Positions 7,560 to 61,022 of a stretch of DNA of 64,000 nt are shown in pieces. The translations under genes were made by a program, and so were the position numbers. Each line of letters opens with the position of its first letter. Positions within the stretch are counted from its first letter, which is position 1. The notes under the pieces were generated by a model. The model had not been told where the DNA came from, ran no database searches, and saw only the letters and a list, made by a program, of their open reading frames with translations. The DNA comes from Asanoa ferruginea (GTDB lineage Bacteria; Actinomycetota; Actinomycetes; Mycobacteriales; Micromonosporaceae), in NCBI RefSeq assembly GCF_003387075.1, contig NZ_QUMQ01000001.1, positions 434,001 to 498,000 of the forward strand, given 5' to 3'.

Positions 7560-7798
7560 CGCAACGACACCGGGCGTCAATCTCCGCTTGCCCCGGGACC
7601 CTCGGCCCGCGGTAGCGAAACCCCCGGCGCTGACCCCGTTCGGGCAACGCCCTTTCCGCGGCGCCAGACCCGGGGCGCTCGCCCATCCTTCGCGACGGCG
7701 GCACCCCCGCCCGCGACGGCGGCACCGCCGCCCGCGACGCTGGACCAAGGGCGCGTGCACAGTTCCCGAGGGCGGCGCCGACATCGGAATCCGCCCGT
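7560..7798. other. Intergenic stretch without a supported gene (start of the repeat region)
   Basis: GC-rich sequence between the terminator and the regular tandem array. It holds an early degenerate copy of the recurring core (CGGGCGTCAATCTCCGC near 7567) and a short run of near-identical gcgacggcggcaccgcc units around 7692-7738. Reading frames here on both strands have no ribosome site and no recognisable domain. Confidence 0.5.
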
Positions 7799-7799
7799 T

Positions 7800-8170
7800 G
7801 ACCGTCGCTCTCCACACCCAGCCGACCGGTGGCAGCGGACCCGGGCCTTGACCGTCGGTCTCCCCCCACCAGCCGACCGGTCGCAGCGAACCCGGGCCTT
7901 GACCGTCGCTCTCCCCCCACCCACCCGACCAGTGGCAGCGAACCCGGCCTTGACCGTCGCTCTCCCCCCACCCACCCGACCGGTCGCAGCGGACCCGGGC
8001 CTGGACCGTCGCTCTCCCCGCATCCACCCGACCGGTGACAGCGGACCCAGGCCTGGACCGTCGCTCTCCCCGCATCCACCCGACCGGTGACAGCGGACCC
8101 AGGCCTGGACCGTCGCTCTCCCCGCACCCAGGCGACCAGTGCCAGCGGACCCGGGCCTTGACCTCCGTTC
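7800..8170. repeat. 51-52 bp tandem repeat array, about seven copies
   Basis: The anchor GACCGGT (or GACCAGT) falls at 7824, 7875, 7927, 7978, 8030, 8082 and 8134, steps of 51 or 52 bp. Each unit also contains GCAGCGGACCCGGGCC (or close), TGGACCGTCGCTCT and a C-run. Copies at 8030 and 8082 are identical. Because the steps mix 51 and 52, no reading frame persists through the array, so it is best seen as non-coding. There are no unique spacers, so it is not a CRISPR array. Confidence 0.85.
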
Positions 8171-8250: not shown

Positions 8251-8440
8251 GGGAACCGACGACGCCGGGCGTTGATCTCCGTGGTCCCGCGCCAGCCCGT
8301 CAGCGGCACCGGACACGGGCGTTGATCTCCGCTCTCCGGCATCAACCGATTCTGCGACTGCGGCCTCGGCGGGCGTTGCCCTCGATCTCCGGCACCAACC
8401 GATCTGCGGCAGCGGCCTCGGCGTGCGTTGATCTCCGCTT
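8251..8440. repeat. Degenerate 50-52 bp repeats with a GGGCGTTGATCTCCG core
   Basis: The core GGGCGTTGATCTCCG or a close variant occurs near 8268, 8318, 8370 and 8421, steps of about 50, 52 and 51 bp, continuing the period of the array at 7800-8170 with diverged sequence. CACCAACCGATCTGCGGC-like segments alternate with it. No gene is supported here. Confidence 0.6.
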
Positions 8441-12326: not shown

Positions 12327-12389
12327 ACCATGCCCTACCGGCCCACGTCGGCTGGGCCCAGCCGTAGCCCGCGGCACCGCGCCGGGCCT

Positions 12390-12726
12390 GTGGCCCGCGG
12401 CCCAGCCTGTGGCCCGAGGCCCAGCCTGTGGCCCGCAGACCGGCCCGTGGTCCGCGGCCCAGCCCGTGGCCCGCGGCCCAGCCCGTGGCCCGCAGCCCAG
12501 CCCGTGGCCCGCAGACCGGCCCGTGGCCCGCAGACCGGCCCGTGGCCCGCAGCCCAGCCCGTGGCCCGCAGCCCAGCCCGTGGCCCGCAGCCCAGCCTGT
12601 GGCCCGCAGCCCAGCCTGTGGCCCGCAGCCCAGCCGGTGGCCCGCAGCCCGGCCCGCCCAGCCTGTGGCCCGCAGCCCGGCCCGTGGCCCGGGCCCGGCC
12701 CGCGGCCCAGCCCGTGGCCCGCGGCT
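12390..12726. repeat. 19-bp tandem repeat array, about 16 copies
   Basis: The unit GTGGCCCGCAGCCCAGCCC repeats head to tail with small variants (AGACCGG for AGCCCAG; GGCCC for AGCCC) and two irregular units near the right end. A 19-bp period cycles through all three frames every 57 bp, which is why long proline/alanine-rich frames run through it on both strands without being genes. It lies in the convergent gap between the hypothetical gene and the helicase gene. A length-variable (VNTR) locus is likely. Confidence 0.9.
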
Positions 12727-27393: not shown

Positions 27394-27400
27394 TTTGATC

Positions 27401-28060
27401 GTGCAGCCCGCCCGACGGATCACCCTGACCGACGACGTCTACGCCGCCGTGCAGGCCCTGATCATGGATCACGAGGTGCAGCCCGGCGCCCGCATCAACA
27501 TCGACGCGCTGGCCCGCCGGCTCGCGGTCTCCCCGACCCCGGTCCGCGAGGCGCTGGCCCGGCTCGAGTCCGACGGCCTGGTCAGCAAGACCCCGCTGGT
27601 CGGCTACGCGGCGACGCCGTTGCTGACCCGGGCGCAGTTCGAGGAACTGGTCGAGATGCGGCTGATCCTCGAGCCGGTCGCCGCCGCCCGGGCCGCCGGC
27701 GCGGGTCTGGACGCGACCGACCTGACCGGCCTGCGCGCGGCGGCTGACCTGCCCGGCCCGGCTGGCGCCGACGGGTTCGCGGCGATCGCGGCGTTCACCA
27801 CGCAGGACGCCCGTTTCCACCACACCCTGGCCGGGCTGTCCGGCAACCGGATGCTGCACGACGCGGTCGTCCGGCTGCGCGCCCACCTGCACCTGTTCCG
27901 GCTGCACTTCCCGGCCGCGCACTACGGCGTCAGCGCGCGCGAGCACCACCGGGTTGTCGACGCGGTCAGCACCGGCGACGCCGACGCGGCCGCCACGGCG
28001 ATGCGCGACCACCTCACGGCGGCGCGCGACCGCCACCTGCCCTACTTCGAGACGCGGTGA
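27401..28060 (+). CDS. GntR-family (FCD) regulator of lactate utilization
   Basis: 219 residues from GTG 27401. The winged helix reads INIDALARRLAVSPTPVREALARLESDGLV; the C-terminal FCD domain has the expected metal-site residues in EMRLILEPVAA, DARFHHTLAGLSGNRML and EHHRVVDAV. The lutA start lies 4 nt after its stop, so it heads the lutABC operon and probably responds to lactate, as LldR/LutR proteins do. Confidence 0.88.
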   Translation: MQPARRITLTDDVYAAVQALIMDHEVQPGARINIDALARRLAVSPTPVREALARLESDGLVSKTPLVGYAATPLLTRAQFEELVEMRLILEPVAAARAAGAGLDATDLTGLRAAADLPGPAGADGFAAIAAFTTQDARFHHTLAGLSGNRMLHDAVVRLRAHLHLFRLHFPAAHYGVSAREHHRVVDAVSTGDADAAATAMRDHLTAARDRHLPYFETR

Positions 28061-28064
28061 GCCG

Positions 28065-28769
28065 ATGCGGATAGCCCTGTTTGTCACGTGCGTCAACGAC
28101 CTGATGTTCCCCGACACCGGCAAGGCGGTCGTGACCGTCCTCGAGCGGTTGGGGCACGAGGTCGAGTTCCCGCTCGACCAGACCTGCTGCGGGCAGATGC
28201 ACGCCAACAGCGGATACCGCGAAGAGGCGCTGCCGCTGGTGGCCAACTTCGTCAAGACCTTCTCCGAGTACGACGCGATCGTGGCACCGTCGGCCTCCTG
28301 CGTGGCGATGGTCCGGGAGAGCTACCCACGGCTCGCGCCGTCGGCTGAGCTGTCGTCGGTCGCCGGTCGCACGTACGAGCTGTCCGAGTTTCTGGTCGAC
28401 GAACTGGGGGTGACCGACGTGGGCGCGCGCTTTCCGCATACGGTGACCTACCACCCGACCTGTCACGGGTTGCGCATGCTGCGCCTCGGCGACCGGCCGC
28501 GGCGGTTGCTGGAGGCGGTCGAGGGCCTAACCCTGACGCCGCTGGAAGGCGCCGAGGAGTGTTGCGGCTTCGGCGGCACATTCGCGCTGAAGAACCCCGG
28601 CGTCTCGGGCGCGATGCTGGCCGACAAGTGCACGGCGATCCGCACCACGGGTGCTGAGTTTCTGGCCGCCGCCGACAACTCCTGCCTGACCCACATCGGC
28701 GGCGGCCTGTCCCGCGGCGACGCCCCGGTCACCCCCATCCACTACGCCCAGATCCTGGCCGCCCAATGA
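28065..28769 (+). CDS. lutA: L-lactate utilization protein LutA (cysteine-rich Fe-S protein)
   Basis: 234 residues with two CCG domains: QTCCGQMHANSGY (about residues 39-51) and EECCGFGGTF (about 164-173), each followed by the conserved partner region (SASCVAMVR; THIGGGL). These bind Fe-S centres in the LutABC complex that oxidises L-lactate to pyruvate in the cytoplasm. ATG 28065 comes 4 nt after the regulator. Its end overlaps lutB by 4 nt (ATGA). Confidence 0.93.
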   Translation: MRIALFVTCVNDLMFPDTGKAVVTVLERLGHEVEFPLDQTCCGQMHANSGYREEALPLVANFVKTFSEYDAIVAPSASCVAMVRESYPRLAPSAELSSVAGRTYELSEFLVDELGVTDVGARFPHTVTYHPTCHGLRMLRLGDRPRRLLEAVEGLTLTPLEGAEECCGFGGTFALKNPGVSGAMLADKCTAIRTTGAEFLAAADNSCLTHIGGGLSRGDAPVTPIHYAQILAAQ

Positions 28770-30208
28770 GCGGGACGGGAAACATCGTCACCCGGTTGCC
28801 GTTCCCCACCGCCGCGCGGCGTGAGTTGGGCGACGAGCAACTGCGCCGCAACCTGCGCAAGGCGACCCACACCATCCGCGACAAGCGGCTGCGGGTGGTC
28901 GGCGAGGTGCCCGACTGGGAACCGCTGCGGTTCGCCGGCGCCGCGATCAAGGACGACGTTCTCGCCCGGCTGCCTTTCTTACTGGAGCAGTTCGAGGCCG
29001 CGGCCACCGCGGCCGGCGCGACGGTGCACTGGGCCCGCGACGCCGAGGAGGCGTGCGCGGTCGTCGCCGACCTGGTGCGCGCCACCGGCACCGCCGAGGT
29101 GGTCAAGGTCAAGTCGATGGCGACCCAGGAGATCGGCCTCAACGAGGCCCTCGCCGCCGTAGGGATCAACGCGGTCGAGACCGACCTCGCCGAGCTGATC
29201 GTCCAACTCGCCGACGACACCCCGTCGCACATCCTGGTGCCGGCGATCCACTACAACCGCACCCAGATCCGCGACATCTTCGCCCGCCGGATGCCGGGCG
29301 TCGACGTCGACGCGCTGACCGACGACCCGCCGGCCCTGGCCGAGGCCGCCCGCCGCCACCTGCGGGCCCGCTTCCTGTCGACGAAGGTCGGCATCTCCGG
29401 CGCCAACTTCGCGATCGCCGACAGCGGCACACTGGCGGTCGTCGAGTCCGAGGGCAACGGCCGGATGTGCCTGACCCTGCCGGAAACACTGATCTCCGTG
29501 GTGGGCATCGAGAAGCTGCTGCCGACGTTCCGCGACCTGGAGGTGTTCCTCCAGCTCCTGCCGCGTTCGTCGACCGGCGAGCGGATGAACCCCTACACGT
29601 CGCTGTGGACCGGCGTCACCCCTGGCGACGGCCCGCAGACGGTGCACATCGTGCTGGTCGACAACGGCCGCACCGACACCCTCGCGGACCCGGTCGGCCG
29701 CCAGGCGCTGCGCTGCATCCGCTGCTCGGCGTGCCTCAACGTGTGCCCCGTCTACGAGCGGGTCGGCGGCCACGCCTACGGCTCGGTCTACCCGGGCCCG
29801 ATCGGCGCGATCCTGTCACCCCAGATGAGCGGCGAGGGCGCCAACCGCACCCTCCCCTACGCGTCGACCCTGTGCGGCGCCTGCTTCGACGCCTGCCCGG
29901 TCCGGATCGACATCCCGCAGGTGCTGGTCCACCTACGACAGTCCGGCGTGGACGCGGCCCGCGGCCGCCCCTCCGCCGAACGCACGGCGATGCGCACCAT
30001 GTCCTTCGTGATGCGCGACCGCCGCCGCTACGCGGCCGCCCTCCGCGCCGCCCGCCGCGGCGCTGCCCCGCTCCGAATGGTGGCCGGCCGCCGCGGCGCG
30101 ATCCGCCACCTGCCGTGGCCGTTGTCGGCCTGGACCTCGTCCCGCGACGCCCCACTCCCGGCCAAGCAGACCTTCCGCGAATGGTGGACCCGTGAGCACT
30201 CCTCCTGA
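28766..30208 (+). CDS. lutB: L-lactate utilization iron-sulfur protein LutB
   Basis: 480 residues. The N-terminal LUD domain (VKVKSMATQEIGLNEAL, GISGANFAIADSGTL) is followed by two 4Fe-4S motifs, CIRCSACLNVCPVY and CGACFDACPVRIDIP. This is the full-length arrangement of LutB. The start codon overlaps the lutA stop (ATGA) and the end overlaps lutC by 17 nt, which supports one translationally coupled operon. Confidence 0.95.
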   Translation: MSGTGNIVTRLPFPTAARRELGDEQLRRNLRKATHTIRDKRLRVVGEVPDWEPLRFAGAAIKDDVLARLPFLLEQFEAAATAAGATVHWARDAEEACAVVADLVRATGTAEVVKVKSMATQEIGLNEALAAVGINAVETDLAELIVQLADDTPSHILVPAIHYNRTQIRDIFARRMPGVDVDALTDDPPALAEAARRHLRARFLSTKVGISGANFAIADSGTLAVVESEGNGRMCLTLPETLISVVGIEKLLPTFRDLEVFLQLLPRSSTGERMNPYTSLWTGVTPGDGPQTVHIVLVDNGRTDTLADPVGRQALRCIRCSACLNVCPVYERVGGHAYGSVYPGPIGAILSPQMSGEGANRTLPYASTLCGACFDACPVRIDIPQVLVHLRQSGVDAARGRPSAERTAMRTMSFVMRDRRRYAAALRAARRGAAPLRMVAGRRGAIRHLPWPLSAWTSSRDAPLPAKQTFREWWTREHSS

Positions 30209-31118
30209 CCCGGCCGCGGCCCCGCGCTCCGGTGGGTCCGCCCGCGCCGAGATCCTCCGCCGCGTCGAGGCCGCCCGCCCCACGTCGCCGGTGGCGGTCT
30301 CTCGTGACTACGACGAGGCCGACGGCCCAGCCGGCGCCGACCTGATCGACCTGCTGGTCGACCGTCTCGAGGACTACCGCGCCACGGTCCGCCGTTGTGC
30401 GCCCGCCGACCTGCCCGCGGCCCTGGCCACCGTCCTCGCTGGCGCCTCCACCGTGGTGCTGCCACCCGGGGTCCCGGCGTCATGGCTGTCGCCCGCCGCC
30501 CACGGCGCCGGCTCGGCCAACGAAGCCGGCTCGGCCAACGAAGGCGGCTCGGCCAACAAAGGCGGCTCGGCCAACGACATCGGCACAGCCAACGACATCG
30601 GCACAGCCAACGAAGCCGGCACGGCCGATGACATCGGCCCACCCAACGAAGCCGGCACGGCCGATGACATCGGCCCACCCAACGAAGCCGGCGCGACCAA
30701 CGAAGCCGGCGCGACCAACGAAGCCGGCACGGCCGATGACGTCGGCTCGGCCAATGACGGCGGGCCCGCCTTTGTCCGGGATGGCGACCCCGCGCTGCTC
30801 ACGGTGACCGACCTGGACGCCCCAGGGGTCGCGGTGGTGACCGGGTGCGCGGTGGCGGTCGCCGAGACCGGCACGCTGATCCTCGACGCCGCCCCGGACC
30901 AGGGCCGCCGTCTGCTGACGTTGGTGCCCGACCACCACATCTGTGTGGTCCGCGCGGACCAGATCGTCGCCCGCCTACCGGCCGCGCTGCGCCGGCTGGC
31001 CGACCCGACCCGCCCGCTCACCATGATCTCCGGCCCGTCGGCGACCAGCGACATCGAGCTCAACCGCGTCGAAGGCGTGCACGGCCCCCGACACCTCAAC
31101 GTCGTCATCGTCGGCTAG
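30192..31118 (+). CDS. lutC: L-lactate utilization protein LutC with an internal hexapeptide repeat
   Basis: 308 residues; LutC is usually about 200-240. The LUD-domain ends are normal: residues 1-100 match the N-terminal half and VTGCAVAVAETGTLILD, LVPDHHICVV and SDIELNRVEGVHGPR the C-terminal half. Between them residues 107-190 are fourteen hexapeptides of the type G-S/T-A-N-E-A. The block falls between the first Rossmann half and the DGDPALLTVTDLD strand, a loop position, so the fold may survive. GTG 30192 lies inside the end of lutB. Confidence 0.9.
   Translation: MSTPPDPAAAPRSGGSARAEILRRVEAARPTSPVAVSRDYDEADGPAGADLIDLLVDRLEDYRATVRRCAPADLPAALATVLAGASTVVLPPGVPASWLSPAAHGAGSANEAGSANEGGSANKGGSANDIGTANDIGTANEAGTADDIGPPNEAGTADDIGPPNEAGATNEAGATNEAGTADDVGSANDGGPAFVRDGDPALLTVTDLDAPGVAVVTGCAVAVAETGTLILDAAPDQGRRLLTLVPDHHICVVRADQIVARLPAALRRLADPTRPLTMISGPSATSDIELNRVEGVHGPRHLNVVIVG
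30510..30761 (+). repeat. 18-bp coding minisatellite inside lutC, 14 units
   Basis: The unit GGCTCGGCCAACGAAGCC and its variants repeat fourteen times in frame. They encode GSANEA, GTADDI, GPPNEA, GATNEA and similar. The block GTADDI-GPPNEA occurs twice in a row and GATNEA twice in a row, which points to recent slippage or unequal crossing-over. Confidence 0.92.
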
Positions 31119-40209: not shown

Positions 40210-43200
40210 ATGAATTCGCGCAGCTGGTCGATCCGTTCGAAGATCATTTCCCTGGTCGCCGTGCCGATCGCCGCGCTCACCGCATTGTGGATCTTCGCGA
40301 CCACGTTGACGCTGGGTCCGGCGCTCAGCCTGCTGTCCGCGCAAGGTTTGCTCGACGACATCGGCAAGCCCGGTGAAAACGTCGTGTCCGCCTTGCAGCA
40401 GGAACGCCGACTGTCGCTTATCTACCTGGCCGGAAAGAGCAGCCCGGAACGGCTCGCCACCCAGCGCGCGGTGACCGACGACGCGATCGGCGAGTTCCGC
40501 CGCAGGTCCTCCGGTGCCAACACCAGTGACCTGCTGTCCACCCGGCTGGCGCAGCTCGACCAGGCGTTCGCGGTGCTGCCCTCGGGCCGCAACTTCATCG
40601 ACCGTCGCGACATGGACAAGGCCGGCGCGCTCGGCCTCTACAACGGCGTGATCGACTCGGCGTTCCGGGCGTTCTCCGTGCTGGTCGCGCTGCCCGACGA
40701 GCAACTCGGCCGCGAGGGTCGGGCGGTCACCTCGCTCGGCCGCGCCCGCGAGGTGCTGGCCCGCGCCGACGCGCTGCTGGGCGGCGTGTTCGCCGGCGGC
40801 CGGTTCGGCGAAGACGAGCACGGCCAGCTCGTGCAGATCATCGGCACCGAGCGCTACCTCTACGAGTCGGCGATCGCTGACCTGCCCGACGACGACCGCG
40901 GCCAATACAACCAGCTCACCGAGGGTGCCGCGTTCAGCCAGCTCAACGGCATGCTCGACACGCTGGTGAGCAAGGGCCGCGACAAGGCGGAGCCACCGGT
41001 GACGGCGACCGAGTGGCAGTCGTCCTACGACACGGTGCAACACGCCCTGCGCGACTTCGAGCTCGACGCGTCCGACCGGCTCGCCGACCGTGCCGTCCCG
41101 GTCGCGACCGGCATCCTGATCCGGCTCGCGCTGGCCGGCGTCCTCGGCCTGATCGCCGTCGGCATCGCGCTCTACGTCTCGATCCGGGTCGGCCGCGGCC
41201 TGATCCGTCGCCTGGTCGGGCTGCGGGCCACCGCGCTCGAGCTGGCCGACGACCGGCTGCCCGCCCTGATCGGCCGGCTGCGCCGCGGGCAGGAGGTCGA
41301 CGTCGACGCGGAGTCGCCGCCACTCGAATACGGCAGCGACGAGCTGGGCCAGGTGGGGCACGCGTTTGCCGCGGTCCAGCGCACGGCGGTCCGGTCGGCG
41401 GTCGACGAGGCGGCGCTGCGGCGGGGCCTCAGCGAGGTCTTCCTCAACATCGCCCGGCGCAGCCAGACGCTGCTGCACCGCCAGCTCGCCCTGCTCGACA
41501 AGATGGAACGGCGCACCACCGACCCCGACGAGCTGGGCGACCTGTTCCGCGTCGACCACCTGGCCACCCGCATGCGCCGACACGCCGAAGACCTCGTCGT
41601 GCTGGCCGGCGCCGCACCGGGCCGCGGCTGGCGGGTCCCGGTCCCGATGATCGACGTCATCCGCGGCGCGGTGTCCGAGGTGGAGGATTATCCGCGGGTC
41701 AACATCGTGGCCGTCGAGCCCGCCGCGGTCGCCGGCCGCGCGGTCGCCGACGTCATCCACCTGCTGGCCGAGCTGATCGAAAACGCCACCTCCTTCTCGC
41801 CGCCGCACACCAAGGTGCACGTGGCCGGCCAGGCGGTGCCCAACGGCTACGCGATCGAGATCGAAGACCGCGGCCTCGGCATGCCGCCGGAAGCGATCGC
41901 CGAGGCCAACCAGCGGCTCTCCGAGCCGCCCGAGTTCGACCCGGCCAACTCCGCGCGCCTGGGCCTGTTCGTGGTGGCCCAGCTCGGTGCCCGCCATGGC
42001 GTCCGCGTGCAGCTCCGCCCCTCCCCCTACGGCGGCGTGACCGCGGTCGCGCTGCTGCCGACGGCGCTGATCGGCGCCGGCTCGGGAGCGCTGGCCCTGC
42101 CCGGCCGGGCCTCCGGTGACCAGTCCGACCGCGCCCTGCCGGCCGGCGACACCGACGCGGTCCTGGTGCCCGGCGAGACCGCCGACGACGCACCGGTGTG
42201 GACGGTTCCCGACGGCGCCTTGACCGCGCCCGGCGACGGCGGCGCGTTGAGCTCCGCACCGCGGGCCAACTGGCCGACCGCACTGTCCGGCGGCCTGACC
42301 CGCCGCAAGCCGGACGCCGCGCCCACGTCGTCGATCCCCGCCTCGACGGTCCCGACCTCGAGCTTCTCCACGCCGCCCAGATCCGGCGGATCGACGCCGC
42401 CCGCGTCGCCGTGGGCCGGGTCCAACTCGGCGGAACGGACGTGGGGTGGATCCCCTTCTGCGGGATCGACCCCCGGCGGACCGACCTGGGCCGGGGCAAC
42501 CGCGGGCGGATCGACCCCAGGCGGGCCGACCGCCGGCGGATCGAACTCGGCCGGATCGACCCCAGGCGGGCCGACCGCTGGCGGATCGAACTCGGCCGGC
42601 TCGGTCCCGAGCGGGTCGTCGGCGGCTGACGTCGCCGCGCAGCCCACGCCGGCGATGGGCCTGCCGGTGCAGCGCCGCCGGCGCCCGACGGAGGAGGCGA
42701 CCACGGAACTCGTCGTCGGCGAAGACGGGCTGCCCCGGCGCAACCGTCAGCGCCACCTCGCGCCGCAGCTCCGCCGCCCGACCGACGATCCGAGCGGCGA
42801 GATCTCCGGTGGCTTCGCGGCCGGCTTCGGCGGCCCGACCATGCCGACCTCGGCGCCGCCCGCCCCGCGTGATCCGGAAGAGGTGCGGGCCCGCATGTCG
42901 GCCCTCCAGGCCGGCACCAGCCGCGGCCGCCAGGAGAGCGCCGCCGCGGCCGCACCGATGTGGACACCGCCCGCACCGGGCAGGGCAAAGGAACTCGACG
43001 ACTCCACCCGGGCGGTGCGGATCCGCACAGGCCCGGGCGGGGCTCCGGACGCGTCTGGCACGCCAGTCGCCGGAAACGGTGCGTCGGGTGAACTTCCCGA
43101 CCAGACGGAGGGGAACGGCGCCACGACGCCGCCCGTACCCTCTGATCAGAGATCGTCACCGCGCGACGAGAACGACCGGTCGCAGCTCAATGATCCATCC

Positions 43201-59480: not shown

Positions 59481-61022
59481 CTAGCTCTTCAGCGTCGGCA
59501 CTGGTTCGTAGTCGTAAAGCCACCCGGTGGCGCGCTCGTAAAAGCGTTCGAAGAAGAGCGACATCCCAATCTCGGTGAGCCGCCGGCGGACCGGCCCGGC
59601 TTGCTTGGCCTCACGGTTGTCGTCGGCGGCCCGCAGCACCCGGGTAACCCGCTCCCGCCGGGCCGCCTCATACCGGGCAAGCCCGTCGTGGACGGTCCCG
59701 GCGGCACCGATCATCGCCCCGAGAACGACCCCGTCCTCGATCGCCATCGAGGCCCCCTGCCCGGCCCCGACCGGGTGCGCGGCGTCGCCGACCAACACGA
59801 TGCGCGCGTCGTGCCAGACCCGCACCAAGTCGAGCACCTGGTTGACGCTGTGCCGGTGCAGTTGGGTGGTGGCCGCGATAATCCGCCGCGGCACCGGCTC
59901 CGCGGCGAAGAGCCCGTCAAGCCACAGCAGCCATTCCCCACCGCGCTCGCCGGGTGGGTTAGGGCTGTTCACCTGGGCCTGCCACCAGACCTCACCACCG
60001 CTGGGTGGGACAACGTGGACAAACGCGCCGTGCGCCCCGACGGTCATGTTGAACGTGCCCTCGCCAGGCGACGCGCCGCTCACTTCATCGACCGCCCGCC
60101 GCGACGCAACACCGGGGACCGGTGCTGCCGACGCACCCACCTCGCCCACCGACCACCCGGACCCATCACCCGCGACCGGAACCACCGGCACGCCGAAATC
60201 GCCCACCGACCGCCCGGCCACGCCCGGGACCGGCACCACCGACGCACCCACCTCGCCCACCGACCGTCCGGACCCATCACCCCCGACCGGCACCACCGAC
60301 GCACCCACCTCGCCCACCGACCGTCCGGACCCATCACCCCCGACCGGCACCACCGACGCACCCACCTCGCCCACCGACCGTCCGGACCCATCACCCGGGA
60401 CCGGCACCACCGACGCACCCACCTCGCCCACCGACCGCGGGGACGAATCACGCGCGGAAGGACCAGCCACCGCACCCGGTGAGCGGCCGGAGATCACCCA
60501 GACGCCCGCGTAGCGCGGGGTCGGTGCATCCGGGTCGAGGGCGCCGCGCACCACTGAGCGGATTCCGTCGGCGCCGACCAGCAGGTCGCCGGTCGCGGTC
60601 AGGCCGCTTGCGAAGCGCGCCGTGCCGTCCGGGTCGACGGCGACCAGCCGCTCGCCGGTCACCAGCCGGACGCCGGCCTCTTCGGCCGCCGCGCGTAGCT
60701 CGGCCACCAGGTGGCCGCGCATCAGGGTGATGCTGCGCATCGGGTCGGTGGTGCGGCGGCCGCGGGGTACGTCGGCGATCAGTTGTCCCTTCGCTGACCA
60801 CATGCGCATCCGGGCGATCGGCATGCCGCGGGACTGGACCCGCTCCAGGCAGTCGATCGCGGCCAGGCCGCGCAATCCGTTGACCGCCAGGCTGACGAAG
60901 GAGCCGACCTCGCCGCCCGGGTCGGGATGGGCTTCGAACAGCGTCACCTCGGCGCCCTGGCGGCGCAGGGCGATGGCGCTGACGGTTCCGGCCACTCCGC
61001 CGCCGATCACGATCGCGTGCAT
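59481..61022 (-). CDS. FAD-dependent monooxygenase with an internal 19-residue repeat block
   Basis: 513 residues, about 130 more than usual for this class. The FAD motifs are present: GGGVAG (about 7-12), GADGIRS (about 150-156) and LVGDAAHPVGAGQGASMAIEDG. Between GVWVISGRSPG and GTFNMTVGAHGAFVHVVPP, residues about 191-316 consist of six copies of RSVGEVGASVVPVGGDGSG-type repeats. The block sits in the substrate-domain loop and keeps frame. The gene is divergent from an MFS pump, which suggests modification and export of a small molecule. Confidence 0.88.
   Translation of the reverse strand: MHAIVIGGGVAGTVSAIALRRQGAEVTLFEAHPDPGGEVGSFVSLAVNGLRGLAAIDCLERVQSRGMPIARMRMWSAKGQLIADVPRGRRTTDPMRSITLMRGHLVAELRAAAEEAGVRLVTGERLVAVDPDGTARFASGLTATGDLLVGADGIRSVVRGALDPDAPTPRYAGVWVISGRSPGAVAGPSARDSSPRSVGEVGASVVPVPGDGSGRSVGEVGASVVPVGGDGSGRSVGEVGASVVPVGGDGSGRSVGEVGASVVPVPGVAGRSVGDFGVPVVPVAGDGSGWSVGEVGASAAPVPGVASRRAVDEVSGASPGEGTFNMTVGAHGAFVHVVPPSGGEVWWQAQVNSPNPPGERGGEWLLWLDGLFAAEPVPRRIIAATTQLHRHSVNQVLDLVRVWHDARIVLVGDAAHPVGAGQGASMAIEDGVVLGAMIGAAGTVHDGLARYEAARRERVTRVLRAADDNREAKQAGPVRRRLTEIGMSLFFERFYERATGWLYDYEPVPTLKS
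60075..60452 (-). repeat. 57-bp coding tandem repeat in the monooxygenase, about six units
   Basis: Three central units are almost identical over 57 bp (about 60240-60420) and the outer ones diverged, as expected of recent expansion from the middle. 57 bp is 19 codons, so the reading frame is kept. The opposite strand is also open but has no ribosome site and is a shadow. Confidence 0.92.

Follow-up and report, generated by a model that had tools for sequence, protein, structure and literature searches.

An in-frame array of 18-bp units within LutC of Asanoa ferruginea, and similar arrays inside other enzymes of the same genome

Rickettsia palindromic elements are interspersed repeats that insert into coding genes. 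Satellites in coding genes of bacteria and in-frame structural variants of the pe/ppe genes of M. tuberculosis are also known, as described in the available parts of PMC6749651 and PMC12817950, respectively. Repeats are found, as a general trend reported in the available part of PMC5120217, in proteins under strongly relaxed purifying or positive selection. A search of the open-access literature found nothing on inserts like the one described here in enzymes of actinomycetes.

The lut operon and the array in lutC

The window, i.e. the whole stretch of 64,000 nucleotides analysed, is part of a genome (denoted G000) assembled in one contig of 9.07 Mb. It hosts a lut operon, putatively for L-lactate oxidation, in which the third gene carries an insert made of tandem repeats.

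27395-28060, plus strand: GntR/FCD regulator, upstream of the lut operon (Pfam GntR and FCD)
28065-28769, plus strand: lutA, cysteine-rich CCG domains (Pfam CCG, two stretches; start at the ATG of MRIALFVT)
28766-30208, plus strand: lutB, LUD plus 4Fe-4S, overlapping lutA and lutC (TIGR00273 LutB/LldF above cut-off; Pfam)
30192-31118, plus strand: lutC, 308 amino acids, GTG start, insert-bearing (Pfam LUD_dom at 216-307; PDB 2G40 on both sides)
30510-30761, plus strand: array of fourteen 18-bp units, residues 107-190, predicted disordered (unit count, TRF, pLDDT)
30607-30692, plus strand: longest exact internal duplication, a 50-base run at lag 36 (30607-30656 repeated at 30643-30692)

The lutA and lutB genes adjoin lutC, the genes overlap and lutABC is intact; lutC is interrupted by neither stop codons nor frameshifts. 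PF02589 matches LutC (E 1.3e-22) at residues 216-307 only, i.e. after the insert. The N-terminal half is recognised only through the alignment to 2G40, the LutC protein of Deinococcus radiodurans, and none of the NCBIfam models matched LutC. Among the best 80 of 555 matches, the best named one is from Asanoa iriomotensis. The residues Y55, H201 and R204, named putative active-site residues of 2G40 in the available part of PMC3924224, correspond in the sequence alignment to Y62, H297 and R300 of LutC, once the 12-residue difference between the numbering of the entry and that of the chain, deduced from the alignments, is taken into account. In 43 aligned sequences H297 and R300 are invariant, and Y62 is conserved in at least 90%.

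The initial annotation had described fourteen 18-bp units at 30510-30761, adding 84 residues in frame, and this holds to the base, the units being in codon phase 0. Units are constant and arranged head-to-tail, and their length is a multiple of three, as in coding minisatellites. TRF places the array at 30507-30754, with a score of 216 (period 18) or 251 (period 36). The unit pattern, with up to three mismatches, matches the window 13 times, 10 of these inside the array, against a mean of 1.10 and a maximum of 4 in 100 shuffles; the array is far beyond chance. The near-identical blocks noticed at the outset are borne out by the 50-base run listed above and by a 32-base exact run at lag 18 (30679-30710). 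Exact runs at lags 36 and 18 show stepwise plus block copying, and block identity suggests that expansion may be ongoing. The array is open in other reading frames too, hence an open frame alone says little. Its codon usage departs from that of the operon: GC3 is 0.81 in the units vs 0.93 in the rest of the operon, and the GAA to GAG ratio is 7 : 0 vs 8 : 42, so that the array uses codons that the operon avoids. A perfect short palindrome, GCCGAT GAC ATCGGC, is found at 30624-30638 (units 7-8) and 30660-30674 (units 9-10), and could give a hairpin on single-stranded DNA.

Each unit encodes a peptide fitting the consensus G-[STPA]-[APT]-[ND]-[EDK]-[AGIV]. The net charge of the insert is -15 over 84 residues and that of the host protein, which the earlier description had called basic or neutral, is -6 over 224; the host is not basic. 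The AlphaFold2 model of LutC, obtained with 43 sequences, has a mean pLDDT of 72.2 and a pTM of 0.62. Over residues 101-190 the ten-residue blocks score 37-55, and apart from the last part of a helix (96-103) this segment is coil. This helix and a strand (193-196) bound the insert, and the flanking blocks score 89-90; the insert is thus predicted to be disordered, between two confident elements, and would occupy a surface position of the LUD domain. The top structural match of the model is 2G40 (Foldseek E 2.1e-16; VIA-align Z 22.3, rmsd 2.1, 161 residues). LutC resembles 2G40 in that both halves (residues 17-100 and 196-308) align and the putative active-site residues correspond, and differs in that 95 residues separate the aligned halves, vs 6 in 2G40. 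The earlier claim of an in-frame repeat expansion splitting a conserved LUD protein is supported. The disordered loop near the active site of 2G40 (S187-G199, according to the available part of PMC3924224) falls on LutC residues 283-295, also of low confidence in the model, and differs from the insert.

Comparison with relatives and selection

The insert was searched for in the congeners G001-G005, which are five species, not strains; G015, from another genus, served as outgroup. The comparison of insert length across the genus, suggested by the initial annotation, gave a uniform result: all five congeners lack the insert, each featuring one continuous match to LutC stripped of the array (two add the usual weak LutB match). 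In the codon alignment congener loops are short at the insert site and no unit is left there. Copy number thus differs between relatives, as in coding minisatellites, being 14 units vs none in 5/5 congener species. Within 110 loci examined, the LutC halves are set far apart only at the locus of G000 itself; some matches are partial, as that of L021, located at a contig end.

A family survey covered 150 genomes, 127 of which have a LutC match at E 1e-15 or better. In these 127, only the G000 protein was seen split into N- and C-terminal matches by a large insert. The same conserved insert in distant relatives, which would mark an ordinary domain, was sought in vain, and an insert of such size was not observed in any other LutC of the survey. 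Excess length was computed for those 39 rows, of about 143 in the table, that by eye looked longest or unusual, and among these the largest other values are +22 (G125) and +12 (G129) residues over the query. Incomplete matches, such as the second gene in G152, and those in G166, G119 (contig end) and G089 (fragments), could not all be judged. The G152 second gene has 31 residues between halves, vs 8 in the query; in G166 the N-terminal half matches weakly (E 0.001), and either the alignment is off or some 25 additional residues lie at another place. Two Catellatospora species (L048, L050) have a LutC with additional residues near the insert site, which in L050 partly repeat the host's own segment. 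Apparent extra residues are located at a second, more N-terminal place in G143 and G104 (weak matches, E 0.004-0.005). Shorter extra stretches at or near the loop in some other lineages indicate that the region tolerates insertion, but no second case with such a length and repeat organisation was encountered. The array is genuine and exact, and within the reach of the searches it is private. A large insert in LutC of Catellatospora tritici, apparent from the length of match L047, was discarded as a joined LutB match. The LutC of the outgroup (L007) contains a short repeat within a low-complexity stretch, at another site closer to the N-terminus.

Outside the array, dN/dS between G000 and the five congeners is about 0.22-0.36, and 0.21-0.48 in the ten congener pairs (G015 left out); this part of LutC is under purifying selection, like the congener proteins. 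Protein distances of the LutC host halves are 0.205-0.265 for G000 vs 0.14-0.23 among congeners; LutB has no such shift (0.051-0.071 vs 0.036-0.075). Since the LutC distance is slightly raised, some relaxation is possible. Between array units pN/pS is 1.32 (0.42 to 3.1 in the five other frames), a descriptive figure because units are not independent, and gives no sign of purifying selection between units.

Arrays inside other enzymes

Arrays with a TRF score of at least 140 were surveyed in 1,264 kb of G000 (the window plus 1,200 kb elsewhere, i.e. 1.26 Mb of 9.07 Mb), in 571 kb of congeners and in 819 kb from seven other genera. They number 62 in G000 (6 in the window and 56 outside), 24 in the congeners and 16 in the other genera. 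Taken singly, other genera feature 0 to 5 arrays per 100 kb, and G006 (80 kb) is as high as G000. An enrichment unique to G000 is therefore unsupported. Arrays with a period divisible by three were scanned against Pfam (26/38 in G000, 9/13 in congeners, 10/11 in other genera); many frames had no family match, and their intradomain status could not be judged. Five in-frame intradomain arrays were found in the G000 sample, those of LutC and of a FAD-binding monooxygenase in the window, and three outside. One more was found in the other genera.

59481-61022, minus strand: FAD-binding monooxygenase, with a 57-bp in-frame array at 60128-60437, about 100 extra residues
L197:5684-6844: zinc dehydrogenase, 39-bp array inside the N-terminal domain, no insert in 5/5 congeners
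L136:16748-18820: translation-factor GTPase (EF-G-like), in-frame 30-bp array, no insert in 5/5 congeners
L145:10981-11730: ThiE, thiamine phosphate synthase, in-frame 24-bp array, no insert in 5/5 congeners
L226:4077-5276: D-Ala-D-Ala ligase of G024, from another genus, 39-bp in-frame array inside the N-terminal domain

LutC is no special target of arrays, as four other enzymes of the same genome are hit. The monooxygenase insert is absent in 2/2 congeners with a close ortholog (G002 and G004); the G004 ortholog has a longer linker, of about 26 residues, without such an array. The zinc dehydrogenase array consists of the host's own 39 bp, present in four exact copies plus a fifth with one base changed, and its peptide resembles a single segment in congeners. 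The intradomain rate was taken from the evenly spaced 1,200 kb alone, because the choice of the window was not random: three arrays correspond to about 23 per genome (Poisson 95% 5-66). The G024 ligase is the single case in the 819 kb of seven other genera, and none was seen in the 571 kb of congeners, which at such counts is no clear difference from G000. An in-frame array in an NRPS AMP-binding domain of G006 (L213) was left uncounted, because the domain match shows no net expansion.

Further arrays are scattered in the window. Arrays of 52 bp, a period that is no multiple of three, are located at 7798-8163 and 8316-8437, amid many TTGATCTCCG-like segments. A 19-bp GC-rich array (12366-12722) is flanked by a LysR-type gene and a large gene of helicase/nuclease type, and a sensor kinase with a NIT domain has a 15/45-bp array (42463-42618) in its C-terminal tail.

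Origin of the insert and known systems

The insert is probably an in-frame coding minisatellite of little or no function, which arose from a local duplication and was lengthened through slippage or unequal exchange at a loop of LutC that tolerates it. The starting event would have been a tandem duplication of a short DNA segment, at the surface linker of the LUD domain that lies between the invariant W98 and the strand 193-196; slippage during replication, or unequal exchange, may then have added 18 or 36 bases at a time. As 18 bp correspond to six codons, gain or loss of any unit keeps the frame. The product would be a flexible, acidic and hydrophilic loop, tolerated because it spares the fold and the putative active site; LutC probably still works, and the insert itself most likely has little or no function. 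In the codon alignment, the LutC unit shows no visible match to the host segment of congeners, so that a founder is no longer recognisable there. The zinc dehydrogenase array, derived from its own 39 bp and encoding a peptide like the congener segment, points to local self-duplication; by analogy, it could represent an early stage, and the LutC array fits the same path at an older one. Loss of mismatch correction was rejected as a cause, as NucS (PF01939) is present in 21/21 genomes searched, G000 included. DNA hairpins are a weak cause at best. Compared with dinucleotide shuffles, the lutC array has a stronger fold (z -6.1), but when the columns of all units are permuted in the same way, a fairer control, its folding is equalled by 9 of 200 permuted arrays. 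The corresponding figures for the FAD, ADH, EF-G-like and ThiE arrays are 20, 99, 66 and 51 of 200, and strong folding is largely a property of any such repeat.

The insert is unlikely to be a selected functional element, such as an acidic flexible linker tuning LutC assembly, partner contact or turnover. The frame and the hydrophilic, acidic make-up are kept over 14 units, and second codon positions are invariant among units, the last codon excepted; low variation at second positions can however stem from recent copying, pN/pS between units exceeds one, and the insert was found in one genome only, congeners and family survey considered. It is very improbable that the array broke the protein and that lutC is decaying into a pseudogene. 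The slightly raised distance of the host halves would agree with decay, but the gene is free of stops and frameshifts in an intact overlapping operon, its dN/dS is inside the congener range, and Y62, H297 and R300 are kept.

Many arrays are found in G000, and 39 of the 47 matches to the unit pattern in its own genome (up to two mismatches; reversed control 15) lie outside lutC, 8 being in the array. A mobile or dispersed family, inserted into lutC from elsewhere, is nevertheless hardly credible: the excess over the control is put down to codon bias, the 39 matches are single sites with one or two mismatches, no two within 1 kb, and other arrays have different units, that of the dehydrogenase being the host's own sequence. 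A pattern search of G000 detected the LutC unit as an array nowhere else, so that related copies at several loci are missing. Repeats are generally prone to misassembly, but an assembly artefact is just as hard to believe, since G000 is a single contig, the array is short (252 bp) and its units are diverged; absence from congeners is unlike a repeat collapse, because no unit is left there. Beyond the local minisatellite favoured here, there is a small chance that in this lineage conserved, folded enzymes are enlarged again and again by private in-frame arrays derived from the coding sequence of the enzymes themselves, with dozens of arrays in a genome acting as a permanent supply of new loops, and that the LutC array, old enough to diverge, might by now modulate the protein.

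More interesting than LutC alone is the broader occurrence of private in-frame arrays in enzymes. It provides a natural series of insertions in conserved enzyme cores, from the near-exact fresh copies of the zinc dehydrogenase to the diverged array of LutC, with empty sites in congeners, and makes it possible to study how folded proteins cope with a newly gained disordered loop and whether they put it to use. It is also a warning that domain models can miss half of insert-split proteins, as the Pfam LUD match covers the post-insert part only. As with Rickettsia palindromic elements, an in-frame extra peptide is tolerated inside housekeeping proteins; unlike those elements, which are dispersed and related, each array here has its own local unit. 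In line with the repeats treated in the available part of PMC5120217, LutC units diverge without sign of purifying selection, but the case differs from that general trend in being one insert in an enzyme core. The closest parallel is with bacterial coding minisatellites and intragenic VNTRs, as presented in the available parts of PMC6749651 and PMC12817950: units are divisible by three in the coding frame, and growth is likely due to slippage or recombination. Unlike those known in repetitive or surface proteins, the lutC array lies within a metabolic enzyme, whose conserved folded domain it interrupts; the type of repeat expansion is known, and its location is unusual.
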